Shown in pieces: positions 5,599 through 62,356 of a DNA stretch of 64,000 bases; the first letter of the stretch is position 1, and each line of letters begins with the position of its first letter. The position numbers were made by a program, and so were the translations under genes. The notes under the pieces are model-generated. The model was not told the DNA's origin and searched no databases. It saw only the letters and a list, made by a program, of their open reading frames with translations. The stretch comes from an uncultured Prochlorococcus sp. (GTDB lineage: Bacteria; Cyanobacteriota; Cyanobacteriia; PCC-6307; Cyanobiaceae): assembly GCA_902627335.1 (NCBI GenBank), contig CACOIV010000001.1:1-64000 (forward strand). Direction: 5' to 3'.

Positions 5599-6639
5599 AT
5601 GGGTGAAAATTTGCCATTACTCTTAAGTGCTGCCTTAGGAAACAAAATCAGTAGACCTCCTGTATGGATGATGAGACAAGCAGGAAGGTATATGAAGATT
5701 TATAGGGACTTGAGAGAAAAATATCCAAGTTTCAGAGAAAGATCTGAGAATCCTGAACTTTCATATGAAATTTCAATGCAACCCTATTATGCTTTTAAAC
5801 CTGACGGTGTTATTTTATTTTCTGATATACTTACTCCTCTCCCAGGGATGGGAATAAATTTTGAAATAATAGAAAGTAAAGGCCCTATTATTGAAGATCC
5901 AATTAGAAATATAGATCAGATATCTAAATTAAGAGAATTAAATCCATCTGAAAGTCTAGGATTTGTTGGGGAAGTCCTAAAATCACTTAGGAGAGATATT
6001 AATGAAGATTCAACATTATTAGGCTTTGTTGGTGCACCTTGGACTCTCGCTGCATATGTTGTTGAAGGTAAAAGCAGTAAGAATTATTCGATTATTAAAG
6101 CAATGGCTTTTCGTGAGGCGAAAATGTTACATAAGCTCTTAGATCACTTTGCCGTTTCAATTGGAGAATATTTAAAATTCCAAATAAAATCTGGAGCCCA
6201 GGTTGTACAGATTTTTGATTCATGGGCAGGTCAATTGAGTCCCCAAGATTATGATACTTTTGCAGGTCCTTATCAAAAGAAGGTAGTTGACATTGTGAAA
6301 AAAGAATTTCCTAATACTCCTATCATTCTTTACATATCTGGAAGCGCAGGCGTTATTGAGAGGATGGCGAAAACAGGCGTTGATATTATTTCCTTAGACT
6401 GGACTGTTGATATTGAAGAAGCATCTCAAAGAATTCCAAACAATATAGGAATTCAGGGAAATATTGACCCAGGTATTTTGTTTGGTGATGAAGATACTAT
6501 TAAAAGAAGAATTGATGAAACCTTTGAAAAAATAAAAGGCAGAAAATATATACTAAATTTAGGCCATGGTATTTTACCAGGCACGCCAGAATCAAACGCA
6601 AGAACCTTTTTTGAACATAGTAAAAACTTATCTTATTAA
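5599..6639 (+). CDS. hemE: uroporphyrinogen decarboxylase
   Basis: ORF 346 aa; '[13 protein letters not shown]', '[16 protein letters not shown]'. Confidence 0.97.
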
Positions 6640-16219: not shown

Positions 16220-16306
16220 TTCAAGAGCTACTAAAGCCTATTCTTTACTAAATATAACTGCTTAGATAAAATATCGTCATTTCTCATAAAACAATCTTAA
16301 GAAATA

Positions 16307-16392
16307 TGGGAGTGGAGGGACTTGAACCCTCACGAGCTAAATCGCTCGACGGATTTTAAGTCCGGCGCGTCTACCAATTCCGCCACACTCCC
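16307..16392 (-). tRNA. tRNA-Leu (UAA anticodon), intronless, CCA not encoded
   Basis: Revcomp GGGAGTGTGGCGGAATTGGTAGACGCGCCGGACTTAAAATCCGTCGAGCGATTTAGCTCGTGAGGGTTCAAGTCCCTCCACTCCCA folds as a class II tRNA; anticodon at 16356..16358. Confidence 0.96.
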
Positions 16393-16468
16393 AACAGGAA
16401 TTTGCGCTCTTTAAGCGTAGCGAAAAGTATTAAATTTAACCATGAAAAATTTGAATATTTACACTTTT
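16354..16468. repeat. Direct repeat copy 1: tRNA-Leu 5' half plus upstream promoter flank
   Basis: Matches 19279..19393 with 2 substitutions in 115 bp. Confidence 0.95.
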
Positions 16469-16556
16469 CTGGAACCATTTAGACGCATTAGATAATTTTA
16501 TAAGAAATTTGCAAATTTTTAAATACTTAATAAGTTAGAAGAAATGCATTATTTTC

Positions 16557-17540
16557 ATGAAAAATTCTTTTTTCTCGATAACTATTTTAAGTTTTGGGAT
16601 TTTAAATTTATTCTGTGCCGCAAAAGCTGATTGGACTCACTGGGGATTCGAGGGTGGAGGAAATAAAGCTACTGAACTTTGGTTTATTAATAAAGAGACA
16701 AATCAGAGATCATTAATAACTACAGATTGCGATCTTGTAGCTGATGGTAATGGAGGCACTGAGTGCGCTGATTGGAATGGTCTTTCATTTGATGAGAGTA
16801 TTGGTAAACTAGTCATCGAAAAAAGAAATAAGTTTTTCTCTTACGATGTAACAAATGACTCTTGGGAAAATTATGATAATTCTTGGAAGTCTCCTTATGA
16901 TGCCGTTTTAAAAATCCCACTTATATATAGGGATGAGAATACTGGAATAACAAAACTTGGACAAAACTCTTTAAATTTCCAAGAGAAACAGAATGAACTT
17001 GACTTATGGGGTACAAATTTAACTGGTGATAAAGTCCCCATAAACGTAACAAGTGGATTACTAATTAAAGGAAGAGATGTAGAACAATCAATAAATAATG
17101 TAGGTGCTTTAAGTGCAGCATTGACTGGTTTGCCAACCATTCCCACAGAGACTAAGCTTGCGTGTGGTTTAGGTTCAGGAACTCACGGAGGAGATTTTGC
17201 ATTTTCAGGTGGTTGTGCTTCTAAAGTCAATGAAAAACTTTCCTTCAATTATGCGGCTGCAATTACTATGCCCGGACAAGAATATGCAGGCGATTTTGAA
17301 GATAAATTTTCTGCAAGAGCAGGGTTTGTATGGAAATTAGGAAAGTCCACAAAACCTTCGCAGATTAGTCTTAAAGAGAAAAAGGAATTAGAAGAAAGAA
17401 TCAAAATACTCGAAGTTAAAAATGAAAAAGTAATTTCTCAAAATCAATCACTTTTAGCAAGATTAGAAAAATTAGAAAATATTGCTTTTGATTTACAGAA
17501 AAACAAAGATTTTAGTTTATCAAAATCGACTTCAGAATAA
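16557..17540 (+). CDS. secreted/outer-membrane protein with YadA-like anchor segment and C-terminal coiled coil (element cargo)
   Basis: ORF 327 aa; signal peptide; 'INNVGALSAALTGLPTIPTETKLACGLGSGTHGGDFAFSGGCASKVNEKLSFNYAAAITMP...FSARAGFVWKLGK' YadA-anchor-like; heptad-rich C-terminus. Confidence 0.65.
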   Translation: MKNSFFSITILSFGILNLFCAAKADWTHWGFEGGGNKATELWFINKETNQRSLITTDCDLVADGNGGTECADWNGLSFDESIGKLVIEKRNKFFSYDVTNDSWENYDNSWKSPYDAVLKIPLIYRDENTGITKLGQNSLNFQEKQNELDLWGTNLTGDKVPINVTSGLLIKGRDVEQSINNVGALSAALTGLPTIPTETKLACGLGSGTHGGDFAFSGGCASKVNEKLSFNYAAAITMPGQEYAGDFEDKFSARAGFVWKLGKSTKPSQISLKEKKELEERIKILEVKNEKVISQNQSLLARLEKLENIAFDLQKNKDFSLSKSTSE

Positions 17541-17570
17541 AAATATTCCTTTATTTTGATTCTTAATTCC

Positions 17571-17730
17571 CGCTAGATATATGTTGGATATTTGTCCTTA
17601 AGTAGACAGGTTATAAATTAATAGAGCGACTGGCTTTTAACCATTGGCTATACAGTACTGTTCGCTAGTGTATAGATTATTTGTTGTCTTTTAAGTCCGG
17701 CGCGTCTACCAATTCCGCCACACTCCCAAC
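17571..17730. repeat. Cassette end, copy A: ~118-bp arm plus 42-bp tRNA-Leu 5'-half
   Basis: Aligns with 19160..19320; about 13 substitutions and 1 indel in the arm, 42/42 in the tRNA half. Confidence 0.93.
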
Positions 17731-17833
17731 GGATGTAGACCTATTGATTCTAACAAACGCGCTTAACATAACAATAAATACGTCATAAAATTCTAGTAAA
17801 TCAGTACCGTTGGACACGCTAGATAATTAAAAA

Positions 17834-18235
17834 TCAAAACTGATTTATTTCTTCTTCATTATCTTTAGTGTGGTTTGATAATAGATTTGAAAAGAAATCA
17901 AGCTGAAGGAAATTATCCTGAAACATTTTCTTTTGAGAAGCCAAGCACCCATCCCTATAAAGAATTGCTTCTGCAATAAAAGTATCACTCACAGGTGAAA
18001 TTATTTTTGAAATCACAGGCTTATAACCTGAAGCACTAGGATTTTTCAATAAGACTAAAGATTTGTCAGCACAGGCAGCTAAATCAGGGGGACACCAGAT
18101 ACTTGTTATTGTTGGATGAAGAGGAATGATAGAACTAAAAATTAATCCGCTACCTGCTTTGGCTAAAGGTGAAACAGTAATAGCTGAATGCCCATCGACG
18201 TCGTCGAATAAAGAGAGCTGCAAAAATTTGGTCAT
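17834..18235 (-). CDS. hypothetical protein (element cargo)
   Basis: ORF 133 aa, no recognisable family. Confidence 0.45.
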   Translation of the reverse strand: MTKFLQLSLFDDVDGHSAITVSPLAKAGSGLIFSSIIPLHPTITSIWCPPDLAACADKSLVLLKNPSASGYKPVISKIISPVSDTFIAEAILYRDGCLASQKKMFQDNFLQLDFFSNLLSNHTKDNEEEINQF

Positions 18236-18477
18236 AAGTTAGTTATGGTTAAAAGGATAATGCCTAGGTTCGAAATTTGAGCCCACACGTCATCCGTCTA
18301 TAAACAAGATAAAATGCATCAGATTAGAACTAACAAAATTTAATTTATTCTTAATATTTGTTATTATTTCTTTTATTCCATGAATTATAGACATTCATTT
18401 AAAATATTAATGTTCTACTATGTTGCTAATCAGAACAATTAAGGTTATATTTTTAATATGATCTCTTAGATTAATCT

Positions 18478-19134
18478 ATGCCTGCAGCAAATACACGCAT
18501 CACAATAACTCCCACCTCAGAAGCTCATTCTGTTTTACTAAATAATTGGGCAATTTTAGAGGGAAGAACCTTATCTAGTTTATGTTCAAGTCTTTTAGAG
18601 AATGCAATAAATGAAGCTATTTCAAAACGAACTGTTAATCCTCAGGCACTAGAAATGATGAATGAGTTAATAAATGTAAGAAGGAACCAACTTAAATTTG
18701 AATATGGAAAGACTCTTTCTCAGGAACAAGAAAAAGCAGAAAATTACTTAAATGAAATTTCAGAGCAAGCACAAGGAGATCCTGAGCATCTACAGAAATT
18801 TGATGCATGGACTGCTAGAGCGGAAGAAGTTTGGAGTAAAGAAACTACAAGTTCAAAAGAAGAAAAAAATAAAGTAGTTCAGGAGCCCGATGTTAAAAAC
18901 ATTACTAATTGCCTTAAAACCTTGAATCTTTATCAATATGAAATAGATGCTCTTAAGTTATTAACTCAGGCTTCAATGGAAGGTCTTGATATTGTAAAAA
19001 TTACTAATACTACAATAAGCCTTAATATCGAATACGAGAAAGATAGATTTGAAGCATTGAAAAACTTTTATAATTCATTCGCGGTCTCCAAAGGTTTTGC
19101 AAAAATGGAAGATTCAGAAATTGAATTGTTTTAA
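18478..19134 (+). CDS. hypothetical protein with ribbon-helix-helix-like N-terminus (element cargo)
   Basis: ORF 218 aa; 'TRITITPTSEAHSVLLNNWAILEGRTLSSLCSSLLENAINEA' RHH-like. Confidence 0.65.
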   Translation: MPAANTRITITPTSEAHSVLLNNWAILEGRTLSSLCSSLLENAINEAISKRTVNPQALEMMNELINVRRNQLKFEYGKTLSQEQEKAENYLNEISEQAQGDPEHLQKFDAWTARAEEVWSKETTSSKEEKNKVVQEPDVKNITNCLKTLNLYQYEIDALKLLTQASMEGLDIVKITNTTISLNIEYEKDRFEALKNFYNSFAVSKGFAKMEDSEIELF

Positions 19135-19159
19135 AATGATTATTTAGCGTAAAAATATA

Positions 19160-19320
19160 CGCTAGATATATGTTGGATATTTATCCTTAAGTGGATAGGT
19201 TATAAATTTAGAAAGCGACTGGCTTTTGACCAATCGCATAAAAGTACTGTTCGCTAGTGTATATGATTATTTGTTGTCTTTTAAGTCCGGCGCGTCTACC
19301 AATTCCGCCACACTCCCAAC
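19160..19320. repeat. Cassette end, copy B: ~119-bp arm plus 42-bp tRNA-Leu 5'-half
   Basis: Aligns with 17571..17730. Confidence 0.93.
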
Positions 19321-19393
19321 AGAAATTTGCGCTCTTTAAGCGTAGCGAAAAGTATTAAATTTAACCATGAAGAATTTGAATATTTACACTTTT
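19279..19393. repeat. Direct repeat copy 3: displaced tRNA-Leu 5' half plus original upstream flank
   Basis: Matches 16354..16468 with 2 substitutions. Confidence 0.95.
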
Positions 19394-19433: not shown

Positions 19434-20474
19434 TTAACTTTTAATTCTCCAATTTAAGTTTTGACCTGCATGAAAAGGTTTTATTGCTCCAATCTTTTTA
19501 TTTTTATCAAAAATATCAACAAATTCCTCAACTTTATATGGATCGCGAACTATCGTAATATATTCATTATTTAATGGTAAATTATGAAATTTAGGACCAT
19601 TAATACTTGCAAATTTCTCAAATTTTTCTAAAGCATTTTCTTCATCAAAAATCTGTAGATAGCTGCTTAATGCTACTGACGAATTAAATATCCCTGCACA
19701 ACCACAGAAAGCTTTCCACTCTCTTAAATGTGGGGCTGAATCAGTGCCTAAGAAGAAACATTCATTACCGCTAGTAGCAGCTTTGATTAAAGAAATTCTA
19801 TTGGATTCCCTTTTAGCTACTGGCAAACAATAAAAATCACTATTCAAACCTCCAAAAAACATTGCGTTTCTATTTATATGCAAGTGATGAGGGGTAATTG
19901 TTGCTGCTATGTTATTAGTCTCTACAAAATCAACTGCATAAGAAGTTGTAATATGTTCTAAAACAATTTTTAAATTTGGAAAATTCTTAATTATTGGATT
20001 TAATTCTGTATCAATAAAAACTTCCTCTCTATCAAAGATATCTACCTTTGGATCATTAACTTCTCCATGAATTAATAAAGGCATACCTATTTCTTGCATC
20101 AATTCAAATACCTTATAAATATTTTTAATATTCTTAACTCCATAAAGTGAGTTTGTTGTTGAATTAGCAGGATATAATTTTGCAGCAAAAAATATATCAT
20201 CTAAGAATCCTCTTCTAATCTCATCATTTGAAATACTGTCCGTAAGATATATTGTCATTAAGGGCTTAAATGTATGTGTTTTTGGTAAAAGAGAACAAAT
20301 TGTATTTTTGTATGAAACTCCCTTTTCAATATTAGTTATAGGATTCTTGGTATTTGGCATTATAATTGCCCTCCCAAAAAAATCTGATGAGAATTTTAAA
20401 ATATTTTTTAAAACGACTCCTTCTCTTAGATGCAAATGCCAATCATCAGGTTTTCTTATAATTAATTTTTCCAA
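19434..20474 (-). CDS. pyrC: dihydroorotase
   Basis: ORF 346 aa; 'PDDWHLHLREG', 'FLGTDSAPH'. Confidence 0.96.
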   Translation of the reverse strand: MEKLIIRKPDDWHLHLREGVVLKNILKFSSDFFGRAIIMPNTKNPITNIEKGVSYKNTICSLLPKTHTFKPLMTIYLTDSISNDEIRRGFLDDIFFAAKLYPANSTTNSLYGVKNIKNIYKVFELMQEIGMPLLIHGEVNDPKVDIFDREEVFIDTELNPIIKNFPNLKIVLEHITTSYAVDFVETNNIAATITPHHLHINRNAMFFGGLNSDFYCLPVAKRESNRISLIKAATSGNECFFLGTDSAPHLREWKAFCGCAGIFNSSVALSSYLQIFDEENALEKFEKFASINGPKFHNLPLNNEYITIVRDPYKVEEFVDIFDKNKKIGAIKPFHAGQNLNWRIKS

Positions 20475-61186: not shown

Positions 61187-62356
61187 ATGAATATAATTCA
61201 CGAAATAAGTTCTATCAACGAAAAATTTTCTACTAAAGGGAGTAAATTAAGGATTGAAAAGAGGGGAGGAAAATTAAACATTAGAGGAAGACTTCCTTCT
61301 AAAGATAATGAAAACATGTCAAGAATTCAAAGAATCTCATTAGGACTTAATGCTGACTTATTAGGACTAAAAGAAGCTGAAAAAAAACTTCAACTTATAA
61401 CTTTACAATTAGAATTAAATCAATTTGATTGGAAGAATTGGACTCAAGTTTCAAAAGTTGAAAACAATAAAAACATTAAAGATGATTTTTTAAAGAAAAT
61501 AGATGAATTTGAAAAAGTTTTTTTCAAAGAAATTAAGAGTGAATTTCTAAACAGTACAAGGAAAACTACTTGGCAAAGTTCATATAAACCTTATATGAAA
61601 AGAATGATTTCTGTTTATAGCAATAATGAAGAACTTGATATAAATAAATTATTTATAAATACATTAAAATCTTATGAGAAGGGAAGTCGAAGTAGAAAAC
61701 AATGCGGAACATCTCTTAATGTATTTGCATCTTTTATGAAACATAAATTGCCTTCCAATTGGAATTTAATGTCTCAAGGTTATGGTATAAAACGAGCAAG
61801 CTTTAGAGAACTGCCAAATGATGACTTCATTCAAGAACTATGGAGCAAAATTCCTAATAAATCTTGGAAGTATGTTTTTGCTCTTATGGCTACTTATGGT
61901 TTAAGAAACCATGAAGTATTCTTTGCGGATTTAAGTTCGTTAAAAAAAGGTGGCGATAATATTATTAGAGTATTGGATACAACAAAAACTGGTGAGCATC
62001 AGGTTTGGCCTTTTCATCCAAAATGGGTAGAGATTTTTGAATTAAATAACCTAGGAGAAGATTATTCACTATTACCTAAGATTAATTTAAATCTAAAATC
62101 AACAACCCTTCAGAATATAGGGAAAAGGGTAACTGAACAATTTAAAAGATATCAATTAAATATAAAACCTTATGATCTGAGACATGCATATGCAGTTCGA
62201 ACAATTTTATATGATTTACCAGATACGGTAGCAGCAAGAATGATGGGACATTCAGTAAACTTACATACAAAAACTTATCACCATTGGATTACTAAACGTG
62301 ATCAACAAAAAGCTGTAAATAATGCAATATTAAAATTTAATGATAGATATTCTTAA
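61187..62356 (+). CDS. tyrosine recombinase (phage integrase family)
   Basis: ORF 389 aa; full catalytic set: 'TYGLRNHEV' (R), 'TTKTGEHQV' (K), '[10 protein letters not shown]' (HxxR), 'MMGHS' (H), 'HTKTYHHW' (Y). Confidence 0.9.

Follow-up and report, generated by a model that had tools for sequence, protein, structure and literature searches.

The interval between the tRNA-Leu(UAA) gene and pyrC in an uncultured Prochlorococcus sp. holds two tandem cassettes without an integrase gene, and the ends of these cassettes correspond to the attachment site of T7-like cyanopodoviruses. The locus is part of a stretch of 64,000 nucleotides (contig CACOIV010000001.1), here called the window. The cassettes are likely to be non-autonomous, CIME-like elements for whose mobilisation an infecting cyanopodovirus supplies the integrase in trans. 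The computed results are the anatomy of the att sites, the absence of phage genes, the existence of empty sites and the turnover at the locus. The features of the locus are as follows.

16306..16393, minus strand: tRNA-Leu(UAA), intact, the integration target (ARAGORN)
16354..16395, plus strand: att core copy a (5' half of the tRNA), within the functional tRNA (exact 42-nt repeat)
16396..16468, plus strand: native-type region upstream of the tRNA (promoter), left end of cassette 1 (98% identical to the distal host copy, 19321-19393)
16480..16493, plus strand: left arm site of cassette 1, TAGACGCATTAGAT (126 nt from the core start; 11/14 matches to the phage site)
16557..17540, plus strand: cargo of cassette 1, an exported protein of 327 aa (ORF list, family searches, family alignment)
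17571..17688, plus strand: right arm of cassette 1, first letters CGCTAGAT (homologous to the attP arm of P-SSP7)
17689..17730, plus strand: att core copy b (exact 42-nt repeat)
17731..17810, plus strand: phage-type spacer, left end of cassette 2, like the cyanopodovirus attP (comparison with phages)
17811..17824, plus strand: left arm site of cassette 2, TGGACACGCTAGAT (no mismatch to the phage site; 122 nt from the core, as in the phages)
17834..18235, minus strand: ORF of cassette 2, 133 aa, without family match (ORF list, profile searches)
18478..19134, plus strand: ORF of cassette 2, 218 aa (ORF list, profile searches)
19160..19278, plus strand: right arm of cassette 2 (95% identity to the corresponding arm of the integrated phage of Prochlorococcus W8)
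19279..19320, plus strand: att core copy c, host side (exact 42-nt repeat)
19321..19393, plus strand: original region upstream of the tRNA, displaced (repeat and empty-site comparison)
19434..20474, minus strand: pyrC, host flank (in empty sites, separated from the tRNA by about 110 bp)

An earlier note on this DNA had reported the 42-nt 5' half of tRNA-Leu three times, and exact copies were confirmed at 16354-16395, 17689-17730 and 19279-19320. Their spacings are 1335 and 1590 bp, and chance cannot explain three exact copies so placed. In addition, 16354-16468 is repeated at 19279-19393 (115 nt, 98%), a repeat that comprises the half-tRNA and about 73 nt of the region upstream of the tRNA, and the arm region 17551-17674 recurs at 19140-19263 with 82% identity ungapped and 89% gapped. 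Three ORFs occupy the interval (327 aa on the plus strand, 133 aa on the minus strand and 218 aa on the plus strand). No integrase or PF00589 gene was found among them, as the note had stated, and elsewhere in the window genome only chance matches to the arms were obtained. The note's reading of two cassettes inserted serially in the anticodon loop is supported by these repeats together with the empty and alternative-cargo sites described below. Its suggestion that they might be relics may apply to cassettes of other genomes whose distal cores have decayed, but in the window all three cores and both arms are intact.

The junction between the cassettes (17571-17825) gave an unbroken alignment with positions 5762-6017 of P-SSP7 in the phage collection, with 84.5% identity over 255 nt. 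The matched region of P-SSP7 lies between int and gene 1, which encodes the RNA polymerase. A search of virus data, as proposed in the note, also led to related arms: a long exact pattern of the arm had no match in IMG/VR, whereas a shorter degenerate pattern retrieved ten contigs from IMG/VR and two from genomes, one of Prochlorococcus MIT 9302, an isolate with its cassette in L037, and one of Prochlorococcus sp. W8. One of the ten IMG/VR contigs is the W8 sequence and the rest are T7-like podoviruses, in which the arm, the core and the left flank are located between the RNA polymerase gene and int. Arm and core are common to all cyanopodovirus contigs examined. The att core of the cassettes is thus the 5' half of tRNA-Leu with phage arm sequences on both sides, as in the int/attP system of these viruses. 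The note had linked the cassettes to tycheposons; the arms belong instead to P-SSP7 and its relatives, for which integration at this tRNA has been shown experimentally. P-SSP7 and S-TIP37 integrate into the host tRNA-Leu during infection, and deletions in S-TIP37 showed that both int and attP are needed (PMC8776855).

The arms are of two types. These pair with two lineages of phages, between which the integrases share only 33% identity. Cassette and phage arms interleave, cassette 2 of the window being nested among the W8-type phages at 95% identity; in the arm comparison the arm of L095 adjoins those of phages L114 and L116. The type-2 phage is L111 (IMGVR_UViG_3300029318_001381), a cyanopodovirus fragment with a type-2 attP at the same tRNA half. 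Its integrase is divergent, sharing 33% identity with the Int of P-SSP7, while the RNA polymerases of the two are 62% identical. W8 is closely related to the window genome (91% DNA identity of pyrC), and on its contig ALPF01000041.1 (L086 / L054) the order is phage RNA polymerase, arm, core and then pyrC. A deposited genome thus includes the junction of a T7-like cyanophage with its host, even though intact prophages are said not to occur; the int end of the phage was not found in the W8 genome, which is 55% complete. Each arm of the window (17571-17688 and 19160-19278) also contains a short hairpin (such as GCGACTGG..CCAATCGC). It seems to be conserved among phages and cassettes by paired changes, and on the phage coding strand it resembles a putative intrinsic terminator after int.

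The cassettes retain only a minimal attP, consisting of the core, the right arm and the left arm site; in the window the right arm is 118 nt long. In nine phages TGGACACGCTAGAT is situated at the end of int, at a distance of 122 nt from the core start. When a stretch of 355 nt was scanned in the type-1 cassettes adjoining the tRNA, the best match lay 124-126 nt from the core in all of them (24/24), with scores of 9-14 of 14. The site is absent from the 23 empty sites (score at most 8 at that position), and shuffles scored 11 or more in only 2 of 12,000 draws. The spacing is kept while the intervening DNA differs: the phage spacer is present in the phages and at core b of the window, whereas most type-1 cassettes that adjoin the tRNA have native tRNA upstream DNA in its place. 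Homology to the phages mostly begins 117-130 nt before the distal core, at CGCTAGAT, which both att ends of the phage bear. A T7-like prophage would have int and RNA polymerase between its att sites, but no sequence of either was found in the window or in other cassettes, and among the 43 arm-bearing genomes only W8 has the RNA polymerase. The smallest cassette, L090 (G507), has 250 bp, no cargo, and its left and right CGCTAGAT sites fused.

The tRNA stays intact in cassette-bearing loci. Most proximal promoter copies are closer to those of other cassettes (up to 99%) than to the distal copy of their own host, which indicates that they travel with the cassettes; in the window and in L104 the nearest relative of the proximal copy is the distal copy of the same locus. 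The distal copies have decayed, being 80% identical to empty sites as against 88% among the empty sites themselves. The cassettes would therefore seem to carry a repair promoter for a tRNA which the host presumably needs.

The trpA-ndhL-tRNA-Leu-pyrC interval is conserved in relatives, and 23 Prochlorococcus genomes have there the empty site predicted by the note, in which a gap of about 110 bp separates the pyrC stop from the tRNA. Other genomes have different genes in the same gap, bounded by the same half-tRNA repeat; these are the alternative-cargo sites which the note had proposed to look for. The type-1 arm profile was detected in 28/267 Prochlorococcus genomes at E<=1e-6 and the type-2 profile in 18 of the 267. 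As three genomes are in both lists, 43 genomes (16%) carry an arm, always in the tRNA-Leu/pyrC interval, and one of them, W8, has the phage itself at the site. In a sample of the family (301 genomes, 59 genera), the type-1 arm was found in Prochlorococcus alone. The cassettes range from 0.25 to 2.7 kb. In many other genomes the distal core has decayed, with up to 10 mismatches, and many copies may therefore be unable to move.

Occupied sites are dispersed over the host tree. When arm type and occupancy are mapped together on a pyrC tree of 66 rows, 30 changes are required, compared with 31.4 for shuffled labels, and the well-supported branches alone force at least 12 changes for type 1; taken by themselves, the empty sites show some clustering (15 changes against 19.4). 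As the empty sites are a sample and pyrC may itself recombine, the tree shows turnover and not mechanism. The TPR cargo gene of L107 is 96.7% identical to that of L122 while their pyrC genes are 79.3% identical, and the two loci are 93-99% identical across the cargo but only close to 80% on either side of it. Their arms are about 70% alike, less than the cargo, as would be expected if one att site had decayed or if cargo had moved from one att frame to another. One PspC cargo family occurs with both arm types, although those pairs are no closer than their hosts.

Each cassette has from zero to four small ORFs, and the cargo is mostly of envelope or exported type: OMP beta-barrels, YadA-anchor-like proteins, rhomboid, PspC, DUF805, lipoproteins and exported TPR proteins. 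The 327-aa protein of cassette 1 has a variable N-terminal half, a nearly constant YadA-anchor-like half and a C-terminal coiled coil. Elsewhere its family is patchy and often multicopy, with arrays outside tRNA-Leu (G447:C4:74726-80099 and G506:C3:72574-78702) that also combine variable N-terminal with constant C-terminal halves. The 218-aa protein showed only a weak ribbon-helix-helix resemblance (RHH_5, E 0.023, below the cut-off) and had no match in PDB or NCBIfam. In the profile searches none of the three window ORFs was an integrase or could be confidently assigned to a family. No integrase, replication or packaging-interference gene was recognised in the window cargo with PHROGs, Pfam and NCBIfam, and neither the 327-aa nor the 218-aa protein has a relative in IMG/VR. 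A search against known defence systems gave only one marginal hit, PDC-M09B (E 8e-4), over the coiled-coil end of the 327-aa protein, and this was not taken as evidence. The cargo is probably what the host gains, and any effect of it on phage infection is speculation.

Since the cassettes have the attachment site of a common lytic virus and no integrase gene, they probably borrow the integrase of that virus. The Int of an infecting phage would recognise the cassette att sites in trans, cut the cassettes out as small circles and join them, singly or in tandem, to tRNA-Leu; excision may depend on a directionality factor. Between cells they might travel in phage particles, in vesicles or as free DNA. 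The native promoter copy probably keeps the tRNA expressed, and for this reason the cassettes could reside where the phage does not persist. The note was right in counting on a helper in trans, insofar as a recombinase is lacking and the arms are a phage attachment site; the mobilisation itself is what we infer. Both movement and circles are proposed from sequence comparison, and no cassette was present on any virus contig examined, which counts against this explanation. So do the lack of IMG/VR relatives of the 327-aa and 218-aa proteins, the decayed distal cores of other genomes and the lower likeness of arms than of cargo in L107/L122. Collapse of prophages is possible as the origin of the cassettes, and allelic exchange as the cause of part of the scatter.

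Taken further, collapse would make all cassettes prophage remnants: a T7-like phage integrated, recombination between its terminal CGCTAGAT repeats deleted the phage body, and genes later entered the scar of about 250 bp, leaving fossils that cannot move and are passed on with the locus. A cargo-less scar of exactly this kind is seen in L090, CGCTAGAT is present at both phage att ends, distal cores are decayed in many genomes, and W8 shows that whole phages can occur at the site. Nevertheless, we regard this as unlikely, because occupancy, arm type and cargo differ among close relatives, the geometry of the arm sites is kept in all type-1 cassettes despite replacement of the spacer by native promoter DNA, the proximal promoter copies travel with cassettes, and cargo has passed between distant hosts (L107/L122). 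Still less probable is that cassettes of phage-Int origin pass between strains today chiefly by homologous recombination of the entire locus, with Int no longer involved. The homology would come from the conserved neighbouring genes and from repeats that reach 115 nt, and the scatter on the pyrC tree alone is silent on mechanism; however, the high identity of L107 and L122 is limited to the interval and stops before either flank, and arms and spacing have stayed intact in many cassettes, as if selection for recognition by Int were still acting.

Recombinases of other sources have very little in their favour as the moving enzyme. A complete 389-aa tyrosine recombinase is encoded at 61187-62356 (plus strand), between hemH and a cobalamin adenosyltransferase-like gene, and many Prochlorococcus genomes have a frame of this or a similar length at about 43-45 kb from tRNA-Leu(UAA). 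That this resident enzyme moves the cassettes in the fashion of an integron integrase could be argued from its presence in most genomes of the genus and from its being the only tyrosine recombinase, and sole PF00589 hit, in the window genome (86% complete), about 45 kb from the locus. It is hardly credible given that the arms match phage lineages, with two types parallel to two phage integrases, and that integration of S-TIP37 required the phage's own int (PMC8776855). Equally improbable are cargo-bearing tycheposons that have no recombinase and are moved by a tycheposon recombinase. Tycheposons occur in the same organism, bear cargo and use tRNA genes (PMC10872708), but the arms here are those of cyanopodoviruses, 0.25-2.7 kb is far below the 4-200 kb of tycheposons (PMC10872708), and no mobile recombinase was found near tRNA-Leu(UAA) where gene listings were comparable.

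Borrowing of the cyanopodovirus integrase can be set beside several known systems. The cassettes share with the int/attP of T7-like cyanophages (P-SSP7, S-TIP37; PMC8776855) the tRNA-Leu 5'-half core, the right arm, the left arm site and the target; they differ in having no int or other phage gene, zero to four other ORFs and stable residence, and in mostly replacing the phage spacer by the native tRNA upstream region. Their working principle is CIME-like, as they have att sites without a recombinase and need a helper. Like CIMEs and microCIMEs (PMC7563491), the window cassettes have attL and attR without recombination genes and occur in tandem, a structure compatible with CIME accretion; gene-free microCIMEs of 130-220 bp are known (PMC7563491) and can be compared with the 250 bp of L090. 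However, CIMEs have their origin in ICEs or IMEs and spread through accretion and conjugation, whereas the cassette att site comes from a lytic podovirus without stable lysogens, which places the cassettes outside the CIME definition. Tycheposons of Prochlorococcus are likewise tRNA-linked and cargo-carrying in the same genus, and the cassettes (1335 and 1590 bp in the window) do sit at a tRNA, but no tyrosine recombinase gene was found in any of them, they are far smaller and their arms are unrelated. Phage satellites (PICI, PLE, PICMI; PMC11389934) also depend on a helper phage, as the cassettes would, but they are larger and redirect capsids or packaging (PMC11389934); no such gene was recognised in the cassettes, for which the borrowed function would be integration. 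Integron cassettes and CALINs (PMC11389934) resemble them in being single-gene cassettes in tandem with a recombinase in trans. The present cassettes differ in having a tRNA target and no attC-like folded site that we could find (apart from the short hairpin in each arm, whole arms fold as single strands no better than shuffles), and the enzyme would be an arm-binding phage integrase. We found no description in the literature searched of integrase-less cargo cassettes with cyanopodovirus att sites, a novelty which is provisional as key subscription papers were not covered.

These results also bear on read-based estimates of phage integration, for which 1.6% was given for group I sites (PMC8776855). 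Reads over the distal junction of a cassette resemble 'phage-att-host' reads, and such estimates may therefore be inflated. T7-like cyanophages have working integrases yet no stable lysogens, and the benefit has been called uncertain (PMC8776855); as the cassettes show, the att system of these phages has a stable use inside host genomes. A wider proposal, which we put forward tentatively, is that the integrase of a lytic virus serves as the shared cassette integrase of the host population, so that a pool of envelope-gene cassettes at tRNA-Leu(UAA) is shuffled on infection by T7-like cyanophages, in two parallel sets that follow two phage integrase lineages and with cargo that may alter infection. 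If the cargo does so, this would be a phage-triggered system of gene exchange or defence. Already if the cassettes do borrow the viral integrase, the puzzling integration system of the virus would have a lasting role in the evolution of its host, and the cassettes provide a testable route by which lytic phages could shape the flexible genome of a highly abundant phototroph.
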